Source: a virus
IMG/VR virus record: IMGVR_UViG_3300017967_002759
Location: 1 to 20,097 of that record
Direction: 5' to 3' (one strand)
DNA length: 20,097 nt
Positions 6,357 to 20,097 of the stretch are shown piece by piece. The notes under the pieces are model-generated. The model was not told the origin of the DNA and made no database searches. It saw nothing but the letters and a program-made list of their open reading frames with translations. How positions within the stretch are numbered: the stretch's first letter is position 1; each line of letters opens with the position of its first letter. A program made the position numbers and the translations under genes.

Positions 6357-6847
6357 AAGCGGGAAAAGTATGGGGCACAACAGAGCTCATTGAAGCTAAT
6401 GGTGCATTAGAGTTTCACCGTATTGAAATGGAAGCAGGTGGGGTATGCTCTAAGCATCTACACCGTTATAAATGGAATGGATTCTATGTAGAGTCTGGTA
6501 AGATGCTCGTACGCGTGTGGCAGCGCGACTATGATCTTGTAGATGAAACCGTTGTTGGACCTAATCAATACACAAAGGTAAAGCCTGGACTATATCATCA
6601 GTTTGAATGTTTAGAGTCTGGTGTAGCTTATGAACTATACTGGGCAGAATTTAATCACAATGATATTGTACGTGAGTCTGTTGGCGAAATGAAATACGAA
6701 TTAACAGAATCGCCTGGTATTACAATAGATATTGATAACGATGAATTCCCTGATATTACAATAGGTATTGATAACGATGGTAGCTACATCAGCTGGCCTG
6801 GTGAAGATGGTGGTCCAGAAGATTTTAGTACTGGAGGGAGAGTATGA
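6353..6847 (+). CDS. Cupin-domain protein with acidic repeat tail
   Basis: This 164-residue protein has a single cupin in its first 105 residues. The first motif is seen as KHLHRYKWNGFYVESGKMLV (H35, H37, Y45 region) and the second as VKPGLYHQFECLESGVAYELYWAEF. The arrangement resembles small cupins and the cupin domain of type II phosphomannose isomerases. A metal-dependent sugar isomerase or a binding protein are both possible. Residues from about 118 onward form an acidic tail holding a 12-residue tandem duplication (ITIDIDND, then ITIGIDND). The gene overlaps both neighbours by about 4 bases. With the PMM-like HAD gene it may be part of a mannose-phosphate route, but this is inference. 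Confidence 0.7.
   Translation: MKAGKVWGTTELIEANGALEFHRIEMEAGGVCSKHLHRYKWNGFYVESGKMLVRVWQRDYDLVDETVVGPNQYTKVKPGLYHQFECLESGVAYELYWAEFNHNDIVRESVGEMKYELTESPGITIDIDNDEFPDITIGIDNDGSYISWPGEDGGPEDFSTGGRV
6713..6779 (+). repeat. Tandem 36-bp-period duplication in the cupin gene
   Basis: Two 31-base copies, 6713-6743 and 6749-6779, differ at only two positions (6717/6753 and 6729/6765). The period is 36 bases, so the reading frame is kept and 12 residues are duplicated in the acidic tail. High DNA identity suggests a recent duplication. Confidence 0.9.
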
Positions 6848-9000: not shown

Positions 9001-9706
9001 AGGCTTATTCAAGCTACGTCACCTACTATACCATCAGGGATATGAAATACAGACAGCATCGTGGCAGGGTACCGAGTCTCCTCCTGTTTTTTTAGAGGTA
9101 CTACATGCTGATCTGACAGCAAAGATGAGTGATGATCCGCAAGAAGCATCCGATCTTTGTAATGCCACGCAACCGTGGGCAGATGTCCACTTTGCAGAAC
9201 GTGTTGGTGGTGAACCACTTAATCCACCACCTTCACATACGATGTGGCTGAAAGATACTGATCAGTATTTGTCTGGTCAGGCTTTCAGTCACTCGTACCC
9301 TGAACGTATGTGGGCACCAAGTATGGATGGTATCAGGTTCAAAACTGGTAACCTTGGTGATGCAGTAGAACTTCTAAAGAAAGATCCTACTACTCGTCAA
9401 TGTTATATCCCTATGTGGTTTCCAGAAGATATTGTAGCTGCCAATGAAGGTGAACGTGTACCTTGTTCCTTTGGTTGGCACTTTATGGAACGTGGTGATG
9501 AACTACATTGTTCTTATCACATGCGTTCGTGTGACGTAGTTCGTCACTTACACAACGATCTGTACTTCGCAAACAGACTTGGTCTATGGTTAATTGAGCA
9601 AAGTGGTCTCACCTGTAAAATGGGGTATTTACATTTCAGCTCAACTAGTTTACACTGTTTTAGTAATGATCGTTTCGCACTTGGTAGATTGATTGGAGTA
9701 GAATAA
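8969..9706 (+). CDS. ThyA-superfamily pyrimidine methylase/hydroxymethylase with Asn-to-Asp switch (dCMP hydroxymethylase-like)
   Basis: This 245-residue protein belongs to the thymidylate synthase fold family. Seen motifs are TTRQCYIPMWFPED (phosphate-binding arginine region), VPCSF (catalytic Cys166), RSCDV (186-190), MGYLHFSS and LHCFSND (His229, for the HxYSN motif). Aligning RSCDVVRHLHND without gaps to E. coli ThyA RSCDVFLGLPFN puts Asp197 at the position of Asn177. Asn177 reads dUMP; Asp at this place in T4 dCMP hydroxymethylase reads dCMP. ThyX, encoded at 16086, can make dTMP, so this copy is free to modify dCMP. The N-terminal 90 residues are not recognisable as standard ThyA. Hydroxymethylation itself is inference. 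The 3' part holds a weak promoter. Confidence 0.75.
   Translation: MNKVTGRNLGEGLFKLRHLLYHQGYEIQTASWQGTESPPVFLEVLHADLTAKMSDDPQEASDLCNATQPWADVHFAERVGGEPLNPPPSHTMWLKDTDQYLSGQAFSHSYPERMWAPSMDGIRFKTGNLGDAVELLKKDPTTRQCYIPMWFPEDIVAANEGERVPCSFGWHFMERGDELHCSYHMRSCDVVRHLHNDLYFANRLGLWLIEQSGLTCKMGYLHFSSTSLHCFSNDRFALGRLIGVE
9622..9656 (+). promoter_or_regulatory. Weak member of the promoter family ahead of asnB
   Basis: GGGG (9622-9625), then TA, TTTACA (9628-9633), 17 bases, and TACACT (9651-9656). The spacing and G-run match the stronger copies, but the -10 box has only four of six consensus bases. The predicted start is about 43 bases before the asparagine synthetase gene. Confidence 0.4.
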
Positions 9707-10998
9707 TGTGTGGCTTTGTAGCTTATCCTGTTGGTAAGAATCCAGAAACAGTAATACGTTCTATTGGCTATCGTGGCCTAGAGAATTACATTGGTTATAG
9801 AGACTGGCAAGGTTTTACATTTGCACACACGTCACTACCATTTGTTAATCTAGACCCACTCTTTGCTATCCAGCCGAACACATACAGTGTCCCAGGATTA
9901 TTCGTTGGCGAAGTATTCAATTATGACACAGATTATGCTTCTGACGTAGAATATGTTCATAATGCATTTCATAATCATGGTACAGATTGTTTTCATGACT
10001 TTGATGGATTCTGGACATATGTCACAATGATTGATAATCATTTGTTTGGTATGACAGACTTCCTGGGTATTAAACCATTATATTACCGTACTGATGTAGA
10101 AGCAATGGCTTCTGAGATTGAGGTATTAAAGCTATTTGGTAAAGTTACACTCGACGAAACATTTATGTCGAACACAATGAAATGGGGTTACTCCCCTGAT
10201 CCACGTACACCGTACAATGAGATCAAACAAGTTCCACCTGGTCATTATGTACATAAAGGCCAGGTACACAGTTACTGGAATTGGGACAAAGTTGAGTATG
10301 GAGACCTATACCAAGACATGAAGCGTTCTGTCTCCGCGCGTCTTGGTGGTCAGAGAGAAGTTTCTATTCTTCTCTCAGGTGGTCTCGATTCCAGTATCAT
10401 CTACGGACTGCTGAAAGAACTTGGTCGTGATGTTACCACGATCCACGTAGATAATCATGAGAAAGACTTCGCACACTTAGTCTCCTCCTCCCTCGTCGAC
10501 GTCACTCTTGATGAAGTCAGTGATCTTGACGCAGTCCGTATCCACCAATCACCAGTCGACCTCGGGTCCGTTAAACCACAAATTGCTATGGCTAGAAAGC
10601 TACGTGAGTTAGGATTCCATGCAGTGTTGACTGGTGATGGTGCTGATGAATTATTCGGTGGTTACCGACGTGCAAAAGAATATGATAGTCAATATTCAGA
10701 TATATTCTGTGAACTACCATATTATCACCTTCCGAAGTTAGATCGTACTATGATGCGTTCTACAATCGAACTTCGTGCACCTTTCCTCGCACCTTATATT
10801 GTAAAGCACGCACTAAAAACGCCATACATATTAAGAGACGGTGAAAAGAAGGTTCTAAAAGAAACCTTTAAGGACATTGTTCCAAAGGAGATTATTGATC
10901 GTGATAAACATCCTCTCAAAACTAAAGAAATCCACGCCTCCCCAACCGCCAAAAGAGGTACCAATGACAACCTCTTCAGACAACTCCAAGTGGGATAG
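9706..10998 (+). CDS. asnB: Glutamine-hydrolysing asparagine synthetase-like protein
   Basis: This 430-residue protein has both AsnB domains. The N-terminal class II glutamine amidotransferase domain has nucleophile Cys2 (MCGFVAY), and GIKPLYY lies near 121-127. The C-terminal synthetase domain has PP-loop SGGLDSS (224-230) and GDGADELFGGY (310-320). It is shorter than the roughly 550-residue E. coli enzyme, mainly through a compact amidotransferase domain and a short C-terminus. AsnB makes asparagine from aspartate, glutamine and ATP; related proteins amidate other carboxylates, including peptides and metabolites, and the compact phage form could do so too. The start overlaps the previous stop (TAATG). 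The end overlaps the dCMP deaminase gene by 35 bases. Confidence 0.85.
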   Translation: MCGFVAYPVGKNPETVIRSIGYRGLENYIGYRDWQGFTFAHTSLPFVNLDPLFAIQPNTYSVPGLFVGEVFNYDTDYASDVEYVHNAFHNHGTDCFHDFDGFWTYVTMIDNHLFGMTDFLGIKPLYYRTDVEAMASEIEVLKLFGKVTLDETFMSNTMKWGYSPDPRTPYNEIKQVPPGHYVHKGQVHSYWNWDKVEYGDLYQDMKRSVSARLGGQREVSILLSGGLDSSIIYGLLKELGRDVTTIHVDNHEKDFAHLVSSSLVDVTLDEVSDLDAVRIHQSPVDLGSVKPQIAMARKLRELGFHAVLTGDGADELFGGYRRAKEYDSQYSDIFCELPYYHLPKLDRTMMRSTIELRAPFLAPYIVKHALKTPYILRDGEKKVLKETFKDIVPKEIIDRDKHPLKTKEIHASPTAKRGTNDNLFRQLQVG

Positions 10999-12434: not shown

Positions 12435-13471
12435 TGTCAATTATGGATAAATTGAAAAAGAACTCAAAGATCAAGTCAACATCTGTGTTGGCTGATTCCC
12501 AGTTCTTTAATAAAAAAGATATGATCACGACCGATGTGCCAATGATTAACGTTGCACTATCTGGTGATCTAGAGGGTGGGCTAACACCAGGACTTACAGT
12601 TCTTGCTGGTCCATCCAAACACTTTAAGACGTCATTTGCGTTGCTAATGGCTTCTGCTTATTTGAAAAAGTATGATGATGCAGTCATCCTATTCTACGAT
12701 TCAGAATTTGGTTCACCCCAATCATACTTCCAACAGTTCGGTATCGATACCAACCGTGTACTGCACACACCAATCACCAACGTCGAAGAGCTCAAGTTTG
12801 ATATTATTAATCAGCTTGAACAGATTGACCGGGAAGACAAGGTCATTGTTGTTATCGATTCGATTGGTAACGTAGCATCAAAGAAAGAACTTGAAGATGC
12901 TATCAATGAAAAGTCTGTGGCAGATATGAGTCGTGCTAAAGCACTAAAAGGTTTGTTCCGTATGTGTACACCTTACCTTGCTATGAAAGATATTCCAATG
13001 TTGGCTGTCAATCATACATATCAGGAAATGGGTCTGTTCCCTAAAGCTATCGTTTCTGGTGGTACTGGTATCTACTATTCAGCAGATAATATCTGGATCA
13101 TTGGGCGTCAGCAGGACAAAAAAGGTACAGAGATTAAAGGTTACCACTTTGTTATTAACGTAGAAAAATCACGTTATGTGAAAGAGAAATCTAAAATCCC
13201 TATTAGTGTATCTTGGGAAGGTGGTGTACAACGTTGGTCTGGTCTACTTGAAGTAGGTATGGCTGGTGGTTATGTAGAAAAGCCATCACCTGGCTGGTAT
13301 CAACAGGCTGGATCTGAAAACAAAGTACGTGAAGCAGATACACTGAAGTCCGACTTCTGGTTACCTATTATTCAGAATACAGACTTTAAGGATTTTGTTG
13401 CTAAACAATATAAGATTGGGGAACAATCTGTTGTGTCTATGGACGAGATTGTCGAAGAGGACATGTCATGA
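12434..13471 (+). CDS. uvsX: UvsX-type RecA-like recombinase
   Basis: This 345-residue protein is close to T4 UvsX (about 390). Walker A is GPSKHFKTS (59-67), the T4-type variant GPSKxFKS rather than the bacterial RecA GPESSGKT. Walker B is VIVVIDSIG (137-145). AVNHTYQEMG matches the loop carrying the RecA-like Q/N switch, and SGGTGIYYSADNIWII resembles the L2 end. It forms filaments on ssDNA for strand exchange, repair and recombination-dependent replication. The start at 12434 overlaps the previous stop (TAATG). The frame extends to 12422, but that start lies within the upstream gene. ATGA overlap downstream. Confidence 0.93.
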   Translation: MSIMDKLKKNSKIKSTSVLADSQFFNKKDMITTDVPMINVALSGDLEGGLTPGLTVLAGPSKHFKTSFALLMASAYLKKYDDAVILFYDSEFGSPQSYFQQFGIDTNRVLHTPITNVEELKFDIINQLEQIDREDKVIVVIDSIGNVASKKELEDAINEKSVADMSRAKALKGLFRMCTPYLAMKDIPMLAVNHTYQEMGLFPKAIVSGGTGIYYSADNIWIIGRQQDKKGTEIKGYHFVINVEKSRYVKEKSKIPISVSWEGGVQRWSGLLEVGMAGGYVEKPSPGWYQQAGSENKVREADTLKSDFWLPIIQNTDFKDFVAKQYKIGEQSVVSMDEIVEEDMS

Positions 13472-13800
13472 AACAGAATAAAGATTACGAATTAGTTCCT
13501 GCAGATGAAGATCAATGGCATGTTCGTATCCTAACTGGCGAATTCACTGAAACTGTATTTCAATTTGGATCAATTACTATTGATGAAGATTATGAAGATA
13601 GTGATGAAGGTGGTCTAATGAGATATAACTTTGATATTATCTCAACACCAGATCCTATGATTGCTTCTGATAATATTGATGAGAATATGCCACTACAAGA
13701 AACCGTTGCAAACATTTTGGTTAGTATCATGGAGGACATTGTAGCTCCTGGTCTAGCGGAAGAAGCTAATGAAAATTCTGATAATGGGTCTGCCGGGTAG
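13468..13800 (+). CDS. Hypothetical protein downstream of uvsX (110 aa)
   Basis: This is a strongly acidic protein. Its N-terminal half (YELVPADEDQWHVRILTGEF, then TVFQFGSITIDED) looks like beta strands and its C-terminal half is helical (ETVANILVSIMEDIVAPGLAEEA). The stop overlaps the following P-loop kinase gene by 32 bases. Position between recombinase and helicase genes suggests a replication-associated role, but no motif shows this. Confidence 0.8.
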   Translation: MKQNKDYELVPADEDQWHVRILTGEFTETVFQFGSITIDEDYEDSDEGGLMRYNFDIISTPDPMIASDNIDENMPLQETVANILVSIMEDIVAPGLAEEANENSDNGSAG

Positions 13801-14215
13801 TGGTAAGACCTGGTTAGCAAAACAATTAGCATACCACTTTCTAGTACCACATCACAATGCTGATACCTATCGTGAATATAATGATGATTGGGACTTCAGC
13901 GAAATGGGTCGTGCTCGTCAGGCAAGACGTATGAGTATGCAGTGGGGCATTTTAGATTTTGTTTGTCCAACTGAAGCACTTCGTCGTATTACCAAGCCTG
14001 ACTATATAATATGGATGGATACGATCACAGAAGGTCGGTACCAGGATACAAATAAATTATTTCAATCTCCAGAAGTGTACGATGTAAGGATCATAGAATG
14101 GATTGGACAAAACCTACTACACAACTACTTGGAAGATTTCAACCCTGGCATCAAGGGCATACAGAGCTTTTTAAACGAGCGCATGCCACTACTGGGCAGT
14201 GTGTTCTCCTCGTAA
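13769..14215 (+). CDS. APS-kinase-like P-loop kinase, C-terminus read in an overlapping frame
   Basis: The Walker A motif is GLPGSGKT (7-14). WDFSEMGRARQARRM, DFVCPT and IWMDTITEGRYQDTN follow, a set like adenylylsulfate kinase (APS kinase) and related P-loop phosphotransferases. The family part ends near residue 110 (VYDVRI). The last 37 or so codons overlap, out of frame, the coding part of the nucleotidyltransferase gene (14098 on) and do not look like kinase sequence. The gene may be half of a formerly fused kinase-nucleotidyltransferase that was split by a frameshift, or two overlapping genes. Substrate is unknown; true APS kinase activity is not assured. The start at 13769 has GGAAG upstream. 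Confidence 0.75.
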   Translation: MKILIMGLPGSGKTWLAKQLAYHFLVPHHNADTYREYNDDWDFSEMGRARQARRMSMQWGILDFVCPTEALRRITKPDYIIWMDTITEGRYQDTNKLFQSPEVYDVRIIEWIGQNLLHNYLEDFNPGIKGIQSFLNERMPLLGSVFSS

Positions 14216-14466
14216 GAAAAACCCCACTTGACGAAAATAACCCCCTCGACGTAGTTAAGGTCATGGACAATATTGTCGAAGCTTTAACTACCGAGGGGTT
14301 TACTTTGGATGAAGATTATATTATAATGGTAGTACCAAACATCACTGATATTTCTTATGGTCGTGATGTCGGTTACTCTATTACACAACATGATCTTGGT
14401 GAAGACGTACATAAAATCTCTGCAACAGAGATCAGAAAACAAATGAGAGCACGCGGAGAGATATGA
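14098..14466 (+). CDS. Nucleotidyltransferase (NadM/cytidylyltransferase-like)
   Basis: This is a 122-residue protein. LLGRFQPWHQGHTELFKRA contains the T/HxGH-type motif HQGH (18-21). KISATEIRKQM near the C-terminus is the ISxTxIR second motif. The sequence VVPNITDISYGRDVGYSI lies between them, as in phage-type NMN adenylyltransferase-like domains. The ATG at 14098 has AAGGA at 14086-14090, so it can start on its own, although it lies inside the kinase gene in the -1 frame. The domain pair kinase plus nucleotidyltransferase suggests joint action on one metabolite. The gene contains a long inverted repeat and the promoter for the helicase gene, and overlaps the helicase start by 4 bases. Confidence 0.8.
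   Translation: MDWTKPTTQLLGRFQPWHQGHTELFKRAHATTGQCVLLVRKTPLDENNPLDVVKVMDNIVEALTTEGFTLDEDYIIMVVPNITDISYGRDVGYSITQHDLGEDVHKISATEIRKQMRARGEI
14241..14298 (+). repeat. Long imperfect inverted repeat beside the helicase promoter
   Basis: CCCCTCG (14242-14248) pairs with CGAGGGG (14292-14298). After a 2-base bulge (AC), GTAGTTAAGG (14251-14260) pairs with CTTTAACTAC (14282-14291), 10 bp with one G-T wobble. The 21-base loop holds a perfect 12-base palindrome, GACAATATTGTC (14266-14277). The right arm supplies the G-run that abuts the TTTACT box of the promoter at 14299. It lies fully within the nucleotidyltransferase coding sequence. Confidence 0.85.
14295..14327 (+). promoter_or_regulatory. Promoter ahead of the helicase gene
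   Basis: GGGG (14295-14298) abuts TTTACT (14299-14304), then a 17-base spacer and TATAAT (14322-14327). The predicted start near 14334 leaves about 130 bases of leader within the nucleotidyltransferase gene before the helicase ATG. The -35 side joins the right arm of the inverted repeat at 14241-14298. Confidence 0.7.
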
Positions 14467-15827
14467 TAGCAAATATAGAACAAACTGTCCTTCGTAACCT
14501 ACTGGTCAACGAACCGTATATGCGCAAAGTGTTACCGTTCATCAAACCAGAATACTTCGAAGGTGTATACCAAAAGCTATTCAAAGAAGTAGCTAAGTAT
14601 GTGGCAAAGTACAACCGATTGCCAACTGCAGAATCATTTAAGATTGAACTTGATGATTCCAATCTAACCGAAGAACAATACCGTCACGCAGTAGAAATCA
14701 TCCCGGAGATCTTTAAGAAAGAAGAAGTGGATGATGAATGGCTATATGACAAGACAGAGAAATGGTGTCAGGATCGTGCACTGTATAATGCAGTCATGGA
14801 ATCAATCAATATTATTGATGGTAAGCATGCCACACTAACAAAGAATGCACTACCAGATATCCTTACAAAGGCACTTGGTGTTTCATTTGATACAAATATT
14901 GGTCACGACTATATTGAAGATGTGGAATCACGTTACGAATTCTATCACAACAAAGAAGAACGTATCCCATTCGATCTACATCTATTCAATGAGATCACTA
15001 AAGATGGTGTACCGAATAAGACACTCAACATTGCTCTGGCTGGTACTGGCGTTGGTAAGTCTTTGTTTATGTGTCACGTTGCTGCAAGTGTACTATCACT
15101 CGGTAAGAATGTTCTTTATATTACCATGGAGATGGCAGAAGAACGTATTGCTGAACGTATCGACGCTAATCTATTGAACATCCCTATTGACCAGATGGAA
15201 AATGTATCAAAGGGTATGCTTACTGAAAAGGTAAACCGTCTAAAGACAAAGACAAATGGTAAACTGATTATTAAGGAATATCCAACAGGTGCAGCGAATG
15301 CTAACCACTTCCGAGCACTACTCAACGAACTGAAGCTAAAGAAATCCTTTGAACCAGATATGATCTTTATTGATTATCTAAATATCTGTGCATCATCACG
15401 TATGAAAGCCATGGGAGGATCTATCAATTCATACACTTACATTAAAGCAATTGCTGAAGAGTTACGTGGTCTTGCGGTCGAGTTCGACTTACCGATCTTC
15501 TCTGCAACGCAGACGACTCGTTCAGGTTATACTAACTCGGATCCTGGGCTTGAAGATACGTCCGAGTCTTTTGGATTACCCGCTACCGCTGATCTAATGT
15601 TTGCCCTTGTATCTAGTGAAGAACTAGAACAACAAGGACAGATTATGGTCAAGCAATTAAAAAATAGATATAATGATCCAAACAAGCACAAAAGGTTCAT
15701 TCTAAATATAGATAGAAGTAGGATGAGACTTTTCGACGCAGAGGCACAAGATCATGATTTAGTACAAGACACACCAGCGTTCGATAACGGTGAGATAGCA
15801 GAACGCTTTGCAGATTTTAAATTATAG
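14463..15827 (+). CDS. 41: Replicative DNA helicase (DnaB / T4 gp41-like)
   Basis: This 454-residue hexameric 5'-3' helicase is close to T4 gp41 in length. The N-terminal about 140 residues are the helical DnaB-type domain. The RecA-like C-terminal domain has Walker A AGTGVGKS (193-200), YITMEMAEERIAERID (H1a-type), Walker B MIFIDYLNI (300-308), SATQTTRSGY (motif H3, with sensor Gln) and FILNIDRSRM (with arginine finger) near the end. It would work with the polymerase and a primase at the fork; the likely primase here is the 5238 gene product. The start has AGAG upstream and overlaps the nucleotidyltransferase by 4 bases. It is followed by 9 bases and AGGAG for the next gene. Confidence 0.93.
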   Translation: MIANIEQTVLRNLLVNEPYMRKVLPFIKPEYFEGVYQKLFKEVAKYVAKYNRLPTAESFKIELDDSNLTEEQYRHAVEIIPEIFKKEEVDDEWLYDKTEKWCQDRALYNAVMESINIIDGKHATLTKNALPDILTKALGVSFDTNIGHDYIEDVESRYEFYHNKEERIPFDLHLFNEITKDGVPNKTLNIALAGTGVGKSLFMCHVAASVLSLGKNVLYITMEMAEERIAERIDANLLNIPIDQMENVSKGMLTEKVNRLKTKTNGKLIIKEYPTGAANANHFRALLNELKLKKSFEPDMIFIDYLNICASSRMKAMGGSINSYTYIKAIAEELRGLAVEFDLPIFSATQTTRSGYTNSDPGLEDTSESFGLPATADLMFALVSSEELEQQGQIMVKQLKNRYNDPNKHKRFILNIDRSRMRLFDAEAQDHDLVQDTPAFDNGEIAERFADFKL

Positions 15828-15836
15828 GAGAATATT

Positions 15837-16082
15837 ATGGGAAAGAAAAGATCACGGGCACATCAGGTATCAAAAGGTGAACGACGGCCACTCGATCGTG
15901 CAATACAAAAGGCTACACGTCGTGAATACAGAAACCGCTTTGAACGTCATATGAATCAGCTTCGAGCACATCTTGCTGGTAAGCCAACAATGATTACTAT
16001 TGCTAATCCTAACCCACAGGAAACCAATAAGCCATTCATTCGTGTTCCTGGTAAAGAATATTTTAATAAAACAGGTCGATAA
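15837..16082 (+). CDS. Small basic hypothetical protein (81 aa)
   Basis: The ATG is preceded by AGGAG seven bases upstream. The N-terminal half is very basic (KKRSRAHQVSKGERRPLDR, then RREYRNRFERHMNQLRAH). The C-terminal half carries MITIANPNPQETNKPFIRV. Such a basic head could bind nucleic acid, but no fold is recognised. It is separated from thyX by only three bases and probably shares its transcript. Confidence 0.8.
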   Translation: MGKKRSRAHQVSKGERRPLDRAIQKATRREYRNRFERHMNQLRAHLAGKPTMITIANPNPQETNKPFIRVPGKEYFNKTGR

Positions 16083-16085
16083 ATT

Positions 16086-16760
16086 ATGAAAGCACGTTTG
16101 ATATCTGCAAGCTCTCCTACCAATCACTTTGTTGGTATTGAAAGCGTACAAGATCTTATTGCACACGCAGCACGTGTGTCCAATCCAGGTAATCAGAATA
16201 ATAGTGATACAGCAGGCAAGCTACTCAACTACTTGATTAAGCACAAACACTGGTCACCGTTTGAAATGGCTAGTGCATGTATTGAGGTGGAAACTACACG
16301 TGATATTGCACGACAGTTATTGCGTCACCGTAGCTTTTCTTTTCAAGAGTTCAGCCAACGTTATGCTGATCCTACTAATGAGCTTTCATTTGTAACACGT
16401 GATGCACGTCTGCAAGATCCAAAGAATAGACAAAATAGTATTGAAACATCTGATACAGCCTTACAGGCTTGGTGGCATGCACAACAAGAATTTTTAATTG
16501 AGCACACTAAAAGAATATATATTGAGGCAATAGAAAGAGGTATAGCAAAAGAACAGGCACGTGCCGTACTACCAGAAGGTAACACTGTTTCACGACTATA
16601 TGTAAATGGTACTATCCGTTCCTGGATTCATTACGTTGAACTACGTAGTGGCCATGGTACACAACTAGAACATATTGAACTCGCGCGCGAGATCGGCCGG
16701 GCGATCACAGCTATCTTTCCAATGATAGAGGATTTTATTCATGGAAGTACAGATTCGTAA
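16086..16760 (+). CDS. thyX: Flavin-dependent thymidylate synthase
   Basis: This 224-residue protein has the ThyX signature RHRSFSFQEFSQR (80-92), fitting RHRxxSxxxxSxR. HWSPFEMA, the ARAVLPEG segment (the nucleophilic Ser region is not certain) and LRSGHGTQLEHIELARE near the end are all expected positions. ThyX makes dTMP from dUMP with FAD, NADPH and methylenetetrahydrofolate. With the dCMP deaminase it provides a dTMP route independent of the ThyA-like protein. The last 20 bases are identical to the end of the next gene, so its C-terminus GSTDS was probably formed or copied by the recombination that introduced the glycosyltransferase. Confidence 0.93.
   Translation: MKARLISASSPTNHFVGIESVQDLIAHAARVSNPGNQNNSDTAGKLLNYLIKHKHWSPFEMASACIEVETTRDIARQLLRHRSFSFQEFSQRYADPTNELSFVTRDARLQDPKNRQNSIETSDTALQAWWHAQQEFLIEHTKRIYIEAIERGIAKEQARAVLPEGNTVSRLYVNGTIRSWIHYVELRSGHGTQLEHIELAREIGRAITAIFPMIEDFIHGSTDS
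16741..16760 (+). repeat. 20-bp direct repeat, left copy
   Basis: ATGGAAGTACAGATTCGTAA is identical to 17567-17586. The copy serves as the end of thyX (in one frame, GSTDS and stop) and as the first codons of the glycosyltransferase (MEVQIR) in another. Confidence 0.95.
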
Positions 16761-17586
16761 TAAAGAAATCCTTACAGATCCCGACAGCTATATTGATCTT
16801 AAACCTTTAAATGATTTAAAAGTCTTAATCTGGCAAACCCACGTAGAACATTCTTATAACTATTTTGGTACATCGCCAGAACAGATAGAAGATTATAGAA
16901 CAAATAGGAGCAGCTATAGTAACTTTTATAAGTTTAGTTCTTATACATGTAAAAGATATGCTGAACGATGGGGATTTGATTACAGATTTGATCTGTACGA
17001 AGAAGAAGAATATGAGCCTTTTGTATTTGGCCAATCAAACTTCGATCAGTTTAAAGCTACAACATTTTTTAAAAAATATGATGCTGTTTTATATTTAGAT
17101 ACTGATGTTTTAATTATGCCATGGGCAGATAATATTATAGAAGAATATTCACCAGAAAGAGATTGGAGTAATATATTTGTTAATACCATAATTGGGAATA
17201 AGTTAAAAAATGTTTATCTGCATCGATCCGGTTCCTGTAATACTGGTGTAGTTCTATACTTTAAAGAAGCTGCTGGGGGTGCAATAGATGTAAAACTTAG
17301 ATCCAAAAGGTTTCTGAAAAACATAATTGAGGAAAATGCAGGTTTGTTAACCACCTTTCGATCTGGGCAATTTGATGACGATAAATTTTTTTATCTATTA
17401 CATAATAAACTAGATGGATCTAGACTATGCCATTTGGATGCCAAGTATAATACGGATTTTTATAGTTATAATCAAAATCTAGAAAATATATCGTTTTTAC
17501 ATTGTTCTGGCGAGATGAAACAGTATATAGAAAGAATATATAATAAAGTATACGATGGAGATCGAGATGGAAGTACAGATTCGTAA
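16741..17586 (+). CDS. GT-A-type glycosyltransferase, probable inserted cassette
   Basis: This is a 281-residue protein. KYDAVLYLDTDVLIMP holds the DxD metal-binding motif (DTD, 120-122), and the layout (N-terminal strand LKVLIWQTH, then a SSYTCKRYAERWGFDYRF segment typical of MNN10/GMA12 and GT8-like enzymes) supports a retaining, nucleotide-sugar dependent transferase. Late motifs include GSCNTGVVLYFKE and FLHCSGEMKQYI (His, metal or substrate). The acceptor is unknown; DNA, lipid or protein are possible. The gene looks more AT-rich than its neighbours by eye. It is bracketed by a 20-bp direct repeat, so it reads as a cassette inserted between thyX and the oxygenase. SD GAGG (16728-16731). 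The start overlaps thyX by 20 bases. Confidence 0.8.
   Translation: MEVQIRNKEILTDPDSYIDLKPLNDLKVLIWQTHVEHSYNYFGTSPEQIEDYRTNRSSYSNFYKFSSYTCKRYAERWGFDYRFDLYEEEEYEPFVFGQSNFDQFKATTFFKKYDAVLYLDTDVLIMPWADNIIEEYSPERDWSNIFVNTIIGNKLKNVYLHRSGSCNTGVVLYFKEAAGGAIDVKLRSKRFLKNIIEENAGLLTTFRSGQFDDDKFFYLLHNKLDGSRLCHLDAKYNTDFYSYNQNLENISFLHCSGEMKQYIERIYNKVYDGDRDGSTDS
17567..17586 (+). repeat. 20-bp direct repeat, right copy
   Basis: Identical to 16741-16760. Here it ends the glycosyltransferase gene (GSTDS and stop) and begins the oxygenase gene (MEVQIRN). After the repeat the two starts remain similar in protein (NKEIL against NSELI). Confidence 0.95.
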
Positions 17587-18238
17587 CAGTGAGCTGATTG
17601 AACAGCTTGATGGTTTTATAAATGACTTTTATGCCATTGAGGGATTCGATGATCCTGTATTCCACATGTACGACCCAAAGGATGCCAGAGAAAATGGTAT
17701 TCTATATACGTCAGAAGAATATCTTCACAAACAAATGGCACTTGGAAGTAAGCACACTGGATTCCCTGAACAACACTTTTCACAACCTGTTGGTCAGATG
17801 GCACAAAGGAATCCGGATCAGTTTGCTGATGTTGCTTTCCGTGTAAGAAAAAAATTCCCAGAAGTTTTAGGCGTTCACTCGAGCGCACTATTCAACTATT
17901 ATCCACCCGGTGGTTTCGTTGGTTGGCATACTAACTGGAATGCTAATGCCTACCAGATTCTTTTCACTTGGTCTAAGACTGGTGACGGATATTTCCGTTA
18001 CTGGGATAATCAAGAAAAGAAAATTGTTCACATCGAGGATAAACCAGGTTGGCAATGTAGATGGTACTACTTCGGAAGAGAGGATGAACCAGATTATCAT
18101 TGCTGGCACGCAGCCTATGCAGGATGTGATAGATTTACACTTGCATATAAATTTGTCAACGATAAGATTGGTACCGATAAGGATAGACAAGCTATTATCA
18201 TGAGGGACCAGCTCATAGAAGAAATCGAGGAAGAATAA
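17567..18238 (+). CDS. 2OG-Fe(II) oxygenase-like protein
   Basis: The 223-residue product shows a double-stranded beta-helix pattern: LFNYYPPGGFVGWHTNW, AYQILFTWSKTGDGYFRYW, then CWHAAYAGCDRFTLAYKF. The first iron ligand appears as H121 (HTN), the distal one as H181, and R189 fits the 2-oxoglutarate carboxylate. The usual HxD is HxN here (Asn123), so the third metal ligand is altered or lies elsewhere. The start is placed at the ATG at 17567, with GGAG at 17557-17560, rather than the in-frame ATG at 17555, because it matches the N-terminus of the glycosyltransferase. Substrate unknown; hydroxylation of a protein, base or small molecule are all possible. Confidence 0.75.
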   Translation: MEVQIRNSELIEQLDGFINDFYAIEGFDDPVFHMYDPKDARENGILYTSEEYLHKQMALGSKHTGFPEQHFSQPVGQMAQRNPDQFADVAFRVRKKFPEVLGVHSSALFNYYPPGGFVGWHTNWNANAYQILFTWSKTGDGYFRYWDNQEKKIVHIEDKPGWQCRWYYFGREDEPDYHCWHAAYAGCDRFTLAYKFVNDKIGTDKDRQAIIMRDQLIEEIEEE

Positions 18239-18239
18239 A

Positions 18240-18464
18240 ATGGCACACATTTCTACTTACTGGGCCGGAAACGGTAAAGAAGGTTACGCAGAAGTTCATA
18301 AAAATATTGAAGAAGGAGGATGCTTCATTCGTTATTTTGATAGTAATGGTGTAAGATTTTTCACAGAAGAGTTTCCTGGTAAATCGATTCATTATGTTGA
18401 GGATGCTGCAGAGAATTGGGCACTAGGTATAAAAAAACTCGGAGGGGATTTACTTCTAGGTTAA
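18240..18464 (+). CDS. Small hypothetical protein (74 aa)
   Basis: The product starts MAHISTYWAGNGKEGYAEV and carries GGCFIRYFDSNGVRFFTEEF, an alternating pattern suggesting a small beta sheet, and ends in helix (VEDAAENWALGI). It starts one base after the oxygenase stop. Its 3' end contains the promoter for the dNMP kinase. No family is recognised. Confidence 0.75.
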   Translation: MAHISTYWAGNGKEGYAEVHKNIEEGGCFIRYFDSNGVRFFTEEFPGKSIHYVEDAAENWALGIKKLGGDLLLG

Positions 18465-18477
18465 CATTTGGTATAAT
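18444..18477 (+). promoter_or_regulatory. Promoter ahead of the dNMP kinase, predicted near-leaderless
   Basis: GGGG (18444-18447), A, TTTACT (18449-18454), a 17-base spacer ending in GG, then TATAAT (18472-18477). The expected start near 18484 leaves at most about 3 bases before the ATG at 18487. No Shine-Dalgarno site is seen between the -10 box and the ATG. Confidence 0.8.
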
Positions 18478-18486
18478 AGTTTTATT

Positions 18487-18981
18487 ATGAAAATATTGAT
18501 AATTGGATATGGTCGGCATGGCAAAGATACAGTAGCAGAGTATCTCCGTGACCACTATGGCTTAACGTTTAAGTCGTCTAGTATGCACTGTGCAGAGAAT
18601 GCGGTGTTCCCTGCACTACGTGGCATGTACGGTTATAATACTGTAGAAGAATGCTTTGCCGATCGTTCTAACCACCGCACAGAATGGTATGATCTTATCT
18701 CAAAGTATTGTGAATCAGATCCTGCCCGTATTGGTCGTGAGATCTTCGAAGTCTCTGATATGTACTGTGGTCTGAGAAACAAACGTGAGTTTCATGCCAT
18801 TCGCAATAATGGTCTTGTAGATGTTACTATCTGGGTTGATCGTTCAGATTGGTTACCAGCTGAAGATAAATCAAGTAATACACTTGAACCTTGGATGGCT
18901 GATTATGTTATCGATAACAATCGTGACCTTGATGAGCTTTATTGTAACGTAGATGATCTAATGAGGAACATATGCAAATAA
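18487..18981 (+). CDS. Deoxynucleoside monophosphate kinase (T4 gp1-like)
   Basis: The product is 164 residues. The P-loop is GYGRHGKDT (7-15) and the sequence VAEYLRDHYG follows. FKSSSMHCAEN, NHRTEWYDLISKY and IREFHAIRNNGL-type segments (here REFHAIRNNG) are in the order of T4 gene 1 dNMP kinase and related phage proteins. WVDRSDWLP and the terminal YVIDNNRDLDELYCNVDDLM complete the typical fold. T4 gp1 phosphorylates dTMP, dGMP and hydroxymethyl-dCMP, so this enzyme could accept a modified dCMP. The start has no SD and sits at the predicted transcription start. The stop overlaps the TauD-like gene by 10 bases. Confidence 0.8.
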   Translation: MKILIIGYGRHGKDTVAEYLRDHYGLTFKSSSMHCAENAVFPALRGMYGYNTVEECFADRSNHRTEWYDLISKYCESDPARIGREIFEVSDMYCGLRNKREFHAIRNNGLVDVTIWVDRSDWLPAEDKSSNTLEPWMADYVIDNNRDLDELYCNVDDLMRNICK

Positions 18982-19877
18982 AACCTATACAAAATGGTGT
19001 GGCTGTTGAGATAACAGATATTGATATTACAGCCTTTGATAAGAGTAGTGATTATGATTTTGTAAGAGATACATTACATAAACATCTTGTTGTGGTTATT
19101 AAAAATCAATCTACTAATCCATGGGAATATACACGTTTCATAGAAAATATAGGTAGAGTTGCTAACTATAATCAATTTGGATTTACTATAGATGCTGAAG
19201 AATATCCACGGGATCAAGTAGTTCCTACTAATCGGTTTAAAGGTGATACTTGGCGTTATCCTGTACAACGAGTAACAGGAAAAAAGAAAAAAGGTAAGTT
19301 TACTGGTATATTTGGTACAGGTAAACTAGATTGGCATGCTAACTTAAATGGGCCAGATCGCGCTGATGGTGTTGCACTACAAGGATGGGAACATTGTGAA
19401 AATACATCGACATCATTCCTGAACACTAATCTAGCATATAATGACTTGGATCCGGATATGTTAGATGAAATAAAAGATCTCTATTGTGAATATGAATATG
19501 CACCTGAAGTTTGGGCTGAAGGCTTACCTGAAGACCAACTTCGTCGTATGAAACAAAATTCAAATAAGTATAAAATGTGGTTAATCCAAGAGAACCTAAA
19601 AGGCGTAAAGGGTCTTTATTTTTATACGAATAATAGATGTAAACTCATTTGTCCTGATCAGAGCCTTTATAATGAAATACATGATCATCTGTTTCAGGAC
19701 AAATACATATATCAACACTGGTGGGAACCCGGTGATATTGTATTAATGGATCAGCTCTTGACTTTGCATAAGCGTGACCAAAATGATACAGAAATATTAC
19801 AAAAGCGGGTATTACATAGAATTACTTTCAGAATTTCTAATGAAAATGGTTTTATAGCACGTAGAAACGATATATAA
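18972..19877 (+). CDS. TauD/TfdA-like dioxygenase
   Basis: This 301-residue protein resembles the TauD/TfdA 2OG-Fe(II) dioxygenases. The family begins with a similar N-terminus (GVAVEITDIDI, then HLVVVIKNQ) and WEYTRFIENIGR matches the FxxxFG region. The first iron-site motif is KLDWHAN (H122, Asn124 where Asp is usual). The distal end is GDIVLMDQLLTLHKRD (His266), followed by KRVLHRITFRI with the carboxylate-binding Arg. TauD-type enzymes hydroxylate small sulfonates or phenoxyacetates; phage homologues have unknown substrates. HxN instead of HxD is also present in the 17567 oxygenase. AGGA lies just upstream of the start at 18972, in the dNMP kinase end. Confidence 0.75.
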   Translation: MQIKPIQNGVAVEITDIDITAFDKSSDYDFVRDTLHKHLVVVIKNQSTNPWEYTRFIENIGRVANYNQFGFTIDAEEYPRDQVVPTNRFKGDTWRYPVQRVTGKKKKGKFTGIFGTGKLDWHANLNGPDRADGVALQGWEHCENTSTSFLNTNLAYNDLDPDMLDEIKDLYCEYEYAPEVWAEGLPEDQLRRMKQNSNKYKMWLIQENLKGVKGLYFYTNNRCKLICPDQSLYNEIHDHLFQDKYIYQHWWEPGDIVLMDQLLTLHKRDQNDTEILQKRVLHRITFRISNENGFIARRNDI

Positions 19878-19910
19878 AGATTGTAACGGTGAAGCAAACC
19901 AAAAGGTATA

Positions 19911-19944
19911 CTGGACACGGGGGCAGTACCCGTCGCCTCCACCA
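19911..19944 (+). ncRNA. tmRNA-like 3' arm: T-stem-loop, acceptor strand and CCA
   Basis: CTGGAC leads to a perfect 5-bp stem ACGGG (19917-19921) with CCCGT (19929-19933) and a 7-base loop GGCAGTA. CGCCTCC (19934-19940) then matches a 7-base acceptor strand, followed by A-CCA (19941-19944). These spacings are exactly those of the tRNA-like 3' end of tmRNA (CTGGAC-CGGG-TTCGATT-CCCG-CGCCTCC-ACCA). The T-loop is not TTCGATT. No 5' half with a matching GGAGGCG-type strand or tag reading frame is present on either side. The antisense translation MVEATGTAPVSS is the hallmark spurious ORF from tmRNA 3' ends. It may be an acceptor piece, a host-derived remnant or a mimic. Confidence 0.6.
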
Positions 19945-19963
19945 TAAACACATTGGAATATCA

Positions 19964-20097
19964 TTGAAGGCAACAAAAAAAAGAACCTTAGTCAAAGCAC
20001 TTATATACAGATGTTGGGTTATACTTTCAACTTATATTATGTTATTGATTACTGGACAAGATTATACAACAGCAATATTACCTGTTATCATTATAAA
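19964..20097 (+). CDS. DUF2061-like membrane protein (partial, runs off the window)
   Basis: Frame from TTG 19964 reads KATKKRTLVKALIYRCWVIL and continues to the window end (LPVIII) without stop. This matches the DUF2061 membrane protein pattern, in which a basic start RSLVKAIxWR is followed by a hydrophobic helix with TG and a second hydrophobic segment. The start is uncertain. TTG with GGAA at 19955-19958 is the best choice, and the frame also extends upstream to 19940. The gene begins right after the tmRNA-like arm. Confidence 0.6.
   Translation, partial: MKATKKRTLVKALIYRCWVILSTYIMLLITGQDYTTAILPVIII

Follow-up and report, generated by a model that had tools for sequence, protein, structure and literature searches.

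Permuted tmRNA genes of T4-like phages may carry exchangeable protein genes in their intervening segment

Introduction

Two-piece transfer-messenger RNAs (tmRNAs) are encoded by circularly permuted genes in which an intervening segment (IVS) separates an acceptor piece from a coding piece, and this IVS is absent from the mature molecules. We analyzed 20,097 nucleotides (nt) of viral DNA (IMG/VR record IMGVR_UViG_3300017967_002759, positions 1 to 20,097; hereafter the window). Very probably, the end of the window holds the acceptor (5′) half of a tmRNA gene that is complete in this T4-like phage and belongs to the circularly permuted two-piece type, and the IVS of this gene is a protein gene and serves as a nested cargo slot in this phage group.

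According to the available text of two reports, known two-piece tmRNAs are made as one precursor that is cut by tRNA-processing enzymes (PMC11915505, PMC9004378). The gene described here shares with alphaproteobacterial permuted tmRNAs (RF01849/RF04321) the order acceptor-IVS-coding, the T-arm, the encoded CCA, a 7-bp acceptor stem with G3-U70 and an ANDN...LAA tag. However, host IVSs are mostly short, as follows from the length of RF04321 matches (mostly 190-260 nt) in 174 of 190 genomes of one alphaproteobacterial class sample, whereas the 238-nt IVS of the window phage is filled by a protein gene. Two Kyanoviridae phages, Methylophilales phage Melnitz and Pelagibacter phage Mosig, also carry complete permuted tmRNA genes of the alphaproteobacterial type, and their two-piece tmRNAs have been described (PMC9004378); an open reading frame (ORF) in the IVS is not mentioned in the part of that report available to us. 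A protein gene in a removed tmRNA segment has a parallel in group I introns of tmRNA genes, some of which contain homing endonuclease genes (PMC11915505, available text), and some phage IVSs likewise encode HNH homing-type endonucleases. These introns are self-splicing inserts in the T-loop, whereas in the window the T-loop is uninterrupted (19922-19928) and the gene lies in the spacer of the permuted gene. The same source, in its available text, describes additional sequence in the IVS of permuted tmRNA genes (a tRNA gene in one case, a repeat in another), but mentions no protein gene there. Phage two-piece tmRNAs are already known from Melnitz; protein genes in the IVS are the part for which we found no report in the open-access literature, to the extent that its text was available.

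Results

Two tmRNA models matched the end of the window above chance. With cmscan, RF01849 (alpha_tmRNA) scored 27.9 bits (E 4.5e-6 in 1.1 kb; E 1.9e-8 in a second run) and RF04321 (tmRNA_permuted) scored 24.9 bits. Both values lie under the gathering thresholds because the window contains only half of the tmRNA gene; ARAGORN called no tmRNA in the window. The matches agree with the initial annotation, which had suggested an acceptor piece of an alphaproteobacterial-type two-piece tmRNA, and re-reading of the sequence confirmed the stem-loop, acceptor strand and ACCA that it had located. The acceptor piece is composed as follows:

19882..19944, plus strand: acceptor piece of the permuted tmRNA; extent from the RF04321 model boundary (the RF04321 match in contig L039 starts at 6488, equal to window 19882)
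19913-19916, plus strand: GGAC before the T-arm, read in the sequence
19917..19933, plus strand: T-arm, with stem ACGGG/CCCGT (19917-19921/19929-19933) and loop GGCAGTA (19922-19928)
19934..19940, plus strand: 3′ strand of the acceptor stem, CGCCTCC, forming 7/7 pairs with GGGGGCG at L039 6788-6794, beyond the window
19941..19944, plus strand: encoded ACCA 3′ end, read in the sequence

The T-loop had been regarded as unusual; the T-arm GGGGGCAGTACCC is in fact standard for alphaproteobacterial tmRNA, the RF01849 consensus being CGGGGGCgGUACCCG. In the first cmscan alignment, GAAGGCA (from 19966) was paired with the acceptor strand; we rejected this pairing as spurious because this stretch is the start of the IVS ORF described below.

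Contig L039 is 99.96% identical to window positions 13395-20097 (6,703 bp) and then extends past the window end into a complete gene. Its acceptor piece runs up to 6550 (window 19944), the IVS occupies 6551-6787, and the coding piece starts at 6788 with GGGGGCGAACTAGGATCGAC and encodes the tag ANDNFAPQDMRLAA, followed by a stop. The whole gene exceeds the gathering scores of both models (RF04321, 106.2 bits, threshold 47; RF01849, 100.5 bits, threshold 50). The same complete gene is present in a 49.6-kb contig from a different metagenome (L135/L188).

These contigs bear on the proposal that the acceptor piece is free-standing and acts as a tmRNA mimic, as a trans-splicing partner of a host coding piece, or is left over from an old integration. 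Covariance-model scans reveal no coding piece within the window, and the available text of PMC11915505 reports that phage DS6A has a tag-less form of tmRNA, also a tmRNA-like domain in a phage, which inhibits the tmRNA of the host. The window tmRNA differs from that form in having a coding piece and tag: both window-identical contigs run, after a 238-nt spacer, into the phage's own complete coding piece, which matches the acceptor stem at 7/7 positions. The partner half is indeed absent from the record, but only because the record stops at 20097, 153 nt past the CCA; the partner begins at would-be position 20182. Barring identical misassembly of both, L039 and L188 already refute a free-standing arm, and we give that explanation practically no weight. 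For the complete gene, two-piece processing, charging with alanine and use of SmpB would be expected, as for the permuted tmRNA class.

IMG/VR scans and annotated phages together yielded 138 distinct complete permuted phage tmRNA genes, and the acceptor stem is paired 7/7 in all 138. The scans relied on an exact motif, so divergent genes are missed and the motif is oversampled.

The IVS of the window phage is cut by the window end and was delimited with L039:

19945..20097, cut at the window end, plus strand: IVS, reaching would-be position 20181 (L039 6551-6787, 238 nt)
19945..19954, plus strand: predicted 5′ strand of the IVS closing stem, TAAACACATT; the partner AGTGTGCTTA lies past the window (covariation and fold)
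19955..19958, plus strand: weak Shine-Dalgarno-like GGAA, by inspection only
19964..20097, cut, plus strand: DUF2061-like putative small membrane protein gene, 68 amino acids (aa), TTG start; complete at L039 6570-6776

The 68-aa ORF begins 19 nt past the CCA and fills 87% of the IVS. Its match to DUF2061 (PF09834) is below the gathering cut-off (19.6 bits against 23.1; E 0.0012), and the product is called DUF2061-like only. Relatives of this ORF occur elsewhere as ordinary genes, lying away from tmRNA in L196-L200.

Filled IVSs are common among phages. Of phage IVSs of at least 160 nt, 81% contain a same-strand ORF covering at least 80% of the segment, compared with 2.6% for dinucleotide shuffles and 13% for the antisense strand. 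ORF starts fall mostly 7-23 nt past the CCA, and stops mostly lie either 12 or 1 nt ahead of the coding piece or 13 nt inside it, the last being the conserved TAG of the tmRNA itself. A first scan, unselected for IVS length, gave at least 91 complete genes among the matches listed (median IVS 93 nt); among these listed matches, 10 IVSs reached 160 nt and 19 were filled by an ORF, which for some of the shorter IVSs reflects chance. In the bacterial control, 84,980 species genomes contained five stretches with an IVS of 191-251 nt, and no ORF-filled IVS was present among the five bacterial cases compared (four distinct 191-251-nt stretches and L209, 165 nt).

About 20 IVS ORF families were distinguished, including HNH endonucleases (PHROG homing endonuclease match, E 2e-13), DUF6356 (E 5e-12), small membrane proteins and uncharacterised others. 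This count is approximate because BLAST linkage merged the window ORF with the TKITKEN family, which we take as an effect of hydrophobic composition. No relatives of either the window ORF or the TKITKEN family were found in isolated phages. Median ratios of nonsynonymous to synonymous substitution (dN/dS) were 0.19 (13 sequences), 0.07 (6), 0.195 (5; window family, range 0.15-0.22) and 0.24 (3; HNH), pointing to purifying selection in all four families tested.

It could be argued that the tmRNA is complete and the IVS ORF a chance open frame instead of a gene. Below 160 nt, chance ORFs reach 80% coverage in 9-21% of shuffled IVSs, and the window family uses a TTG start. However, the excess over shuffles and antisense at 160 nt and above, the low dN/dS of the window family and the relatives found as ordinary genes make a chance frame very improbable. 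We infer that the IVS ORFs are translated.

In L091, L105 and L114 (IVS 464-514 nt), HNH-type ORFs are preceded by TATAAATA in a hairpin, e.g. CCTAGTTTTATAAATAACTAGG, and this motif resembles a T4 late promoter. Homing-endonuclease genes of T4 have a promoter-hairpin layout similar to this one.

Comparison of related contigs revealed exchange of IVSs. L039 and L189 have the same IVS (identity 1.00) between acceptor and coding pieces that are 0.80 and 0.69 identical, and the flanks compared have no other homology. Chimeric assembly is unlikely here because the acceptor halves within each contig fit each other (CGCCTCC/GGGGGCG and CAGCTCC/GGGGCTG). The reverse arrangement was found in L033, L042, L046, L067, L091 and L111, which have acceptor and coding pieces in common (coding pieces 93-100% identical) and carry unrelated IVSs: 71 nt without an ORF, 29 nt, a 47-aa ORF, or an HNH gene.

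In addition, L193 and L213 contain an IVS of the window family after an Hsp20 gene, without tmRNA halves, and their homology to L190 matches the extent of the IVS, with a deviation of about 1 nt at either end. Their relatives L215-L218 lack the IVS cassette; the empty site in L215/L216, TTTATGAATAGGGG, is much like the IVS/coding junction TTTATGATGGGGG. On the simplest reading, the cassette would have moved out of a tmRNA, perhaps by microhomology. A broader idea, which we put forward tentatively and consider possible but doubtful, treats the IVS of phage permuted tmRNA genes as a mobile element in which imperfect inverted ends (AAACACA...TGTGTTT) enclose a small gene. Such a cassette would pass from one tmRNA to another and at times leave tmRNA altogether, as in L193. 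It would find a safe harbour in the segment that a ribosome-rescue RNA discards, the HNH members would be the homing form, and its RNA would serve as messenger as well as tmRNA precursor.

RNA structure is kept across the ORF. Over 40 distinct ORF-class ends, the acceptor stem is 100% paired, compared with 90% (maximum 94%) when partners are shuffled among phages, and a 10-bp closing stem formed from both IVS ends is 91% paired, compared with 69% (maximum 74%), with both-side changes at every closing-stem pair; these counts are inflated by relatedness, because one inherited change counts in several sequences. The predicted fold of the L039 precursor beats shuffles (z -4.3), with both the acceptor and the closing stems formed, and pairs the ORF start region with the ORF 3′ end.

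These data also address the view that ORF-bearing tmRNA genes are decaying, i.e., that the spacer received a gene and the tmRNA has lost its function. Such a view could draw on L193, where the same IVS has no surrounding tmRNA, and on a simple tag pattern that missed about one fifth of ORF-class genes. On the other hand, all acceptor stems are still paired 7/7 with compensatory changes, G3-U70 is kept in 40/40 distinct ORF-class ends, and ANDN...AA tags are intact in at least 42 of 54 ORF-class genes by the simple pattern search. L193 represents an insertion and not a loss of tmRNA, because its relatives have the empty site. Decay is thus an improbable account of these genes, only slightly less so than a chance frame.

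The window phage itself is T4-like and encodes DNA polymerase B, UvsX, a DnaB-type helicase and ThyX; the polymerase shares 53% identity with the enzyme of Phage C48C1 (Kyanoviridae). An asparagine-synthase/glutamine-amidotransferase-type gene (9706-10998) and a QueC-like gene (893-1567) are located in its replication region.

Among cultivated phages, Melnitz (L122, MZ577097) has an unannotated candidate IVS ORF at 2554-2715 (MFKWLSKTRLVVITRDYFRERNRK...), which follows a GGAG motif, runs into the coding piece and is present in 4/4 isolates. Two IVS ORF families have relatives immediately upstream of a tmRNA, at 2238-2438 in L122 and at 3001-3204 in L195.

Several other tmRNA loci were noted. 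L099 (near 7337, reverse complement) and L053 (1-90) have a TTTCGAC segment and a T-arm within about 40 nt, leaving no room for a tag; neither RNA was called by Rfam at the gathering threshold or by ARAGORN, and they are possible DS6A-like tag-less mini-tmRNAs. L099 also contains a ROOL RNA and 8 tRNAs. In L123 (Erythrobacter phage vB_EliS-L02), positions 53-2850 hold 19 clustered tRNAs and, after them, a complete permuted tmRNA; the record annotates none of these genes.

ARAGORN found 7 of 30 phage genes with an IVS of 200-250 nt and 0 of 11 with a longer one. Since it misses most long-IVS genes, phage tmRNA counts based on this program are probably too low. L039, L188 and L192 are among the long-IVS loci relevant to these misses.

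Discussion

In this study, sequence comparison revealed a complete permuted phage tmRNA gene with an intact tag, conserved IVS ORFs under purifying selection, covarying stems, exchange of IVSs, and an IVS outside tmRNA whose relatives have an empty site. The IVS is most likely a nested, exchangeable cargo slot.

Several observations weigh against this interpretation. Transcription, two-piece processing and ORF translation are all deduced from sequence, and all large samples consist of uncultured metagenome contigs. The window ORF family combines its TTG start with a weak Shine-Dalgarno-like motif, and some ORFs in IVSs of 100-160 nt are expected by chance (9-12% in shuffles). Cultivated Melnitz has only the shorter candidate ORF, for which no relatives were found beyond its four isolates.

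A different possibility is that the proteins encoded in IVSs take part in trans-translation or ribosome rescue, or act on these processes, in which case nesting would reflect functional co-regulation and not a mere slot. The location of two ORF families directly upstream of tmRNA in L195 and Melnitz suggests a lasting association, and a fold that pairs the ORF start region with its 3′ end could couple processing to translation. However, about 20 unrelated families, from HNH endonucleases to small membrane proteins, share the slot, and some relatives of the window ORF are found at a distance from tmRNA. We consider co-regulation unlikely, though less so than decay or a chance frame.

If the IVS is a cargo slot, the following scheme may apply. 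The gene, in the order acceptor piece, IVS and tag-bearing coding piece, would be read as one transcript and cleaved after the 3′ end of the acceptor piece and before the 5′ end of the coding piece. The ORF, beginning just past the CCA and ending where the coding piece starts, may be translated from the precursor or from the excised IVS. The tRNA-like ends and the IVS closing stem would be retained so that the precursor still folds and is cut, and the loop between the kept stems would carry a gene that is swapped among tmRNAs and occasionally escapes to other sites. The phage tmRNA would use host SmpB.

The spacer of permuted tmRNA genes is usually regarded as disposable. If the phage IVS is indeed a gene slot, one transcript must act as messenger as well as tmRNA precursor, and the choice between these uses would fall to RNA processing. 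Such a slot would offer phage accessory and homing genes a refuge that has been overlooked by annotation.
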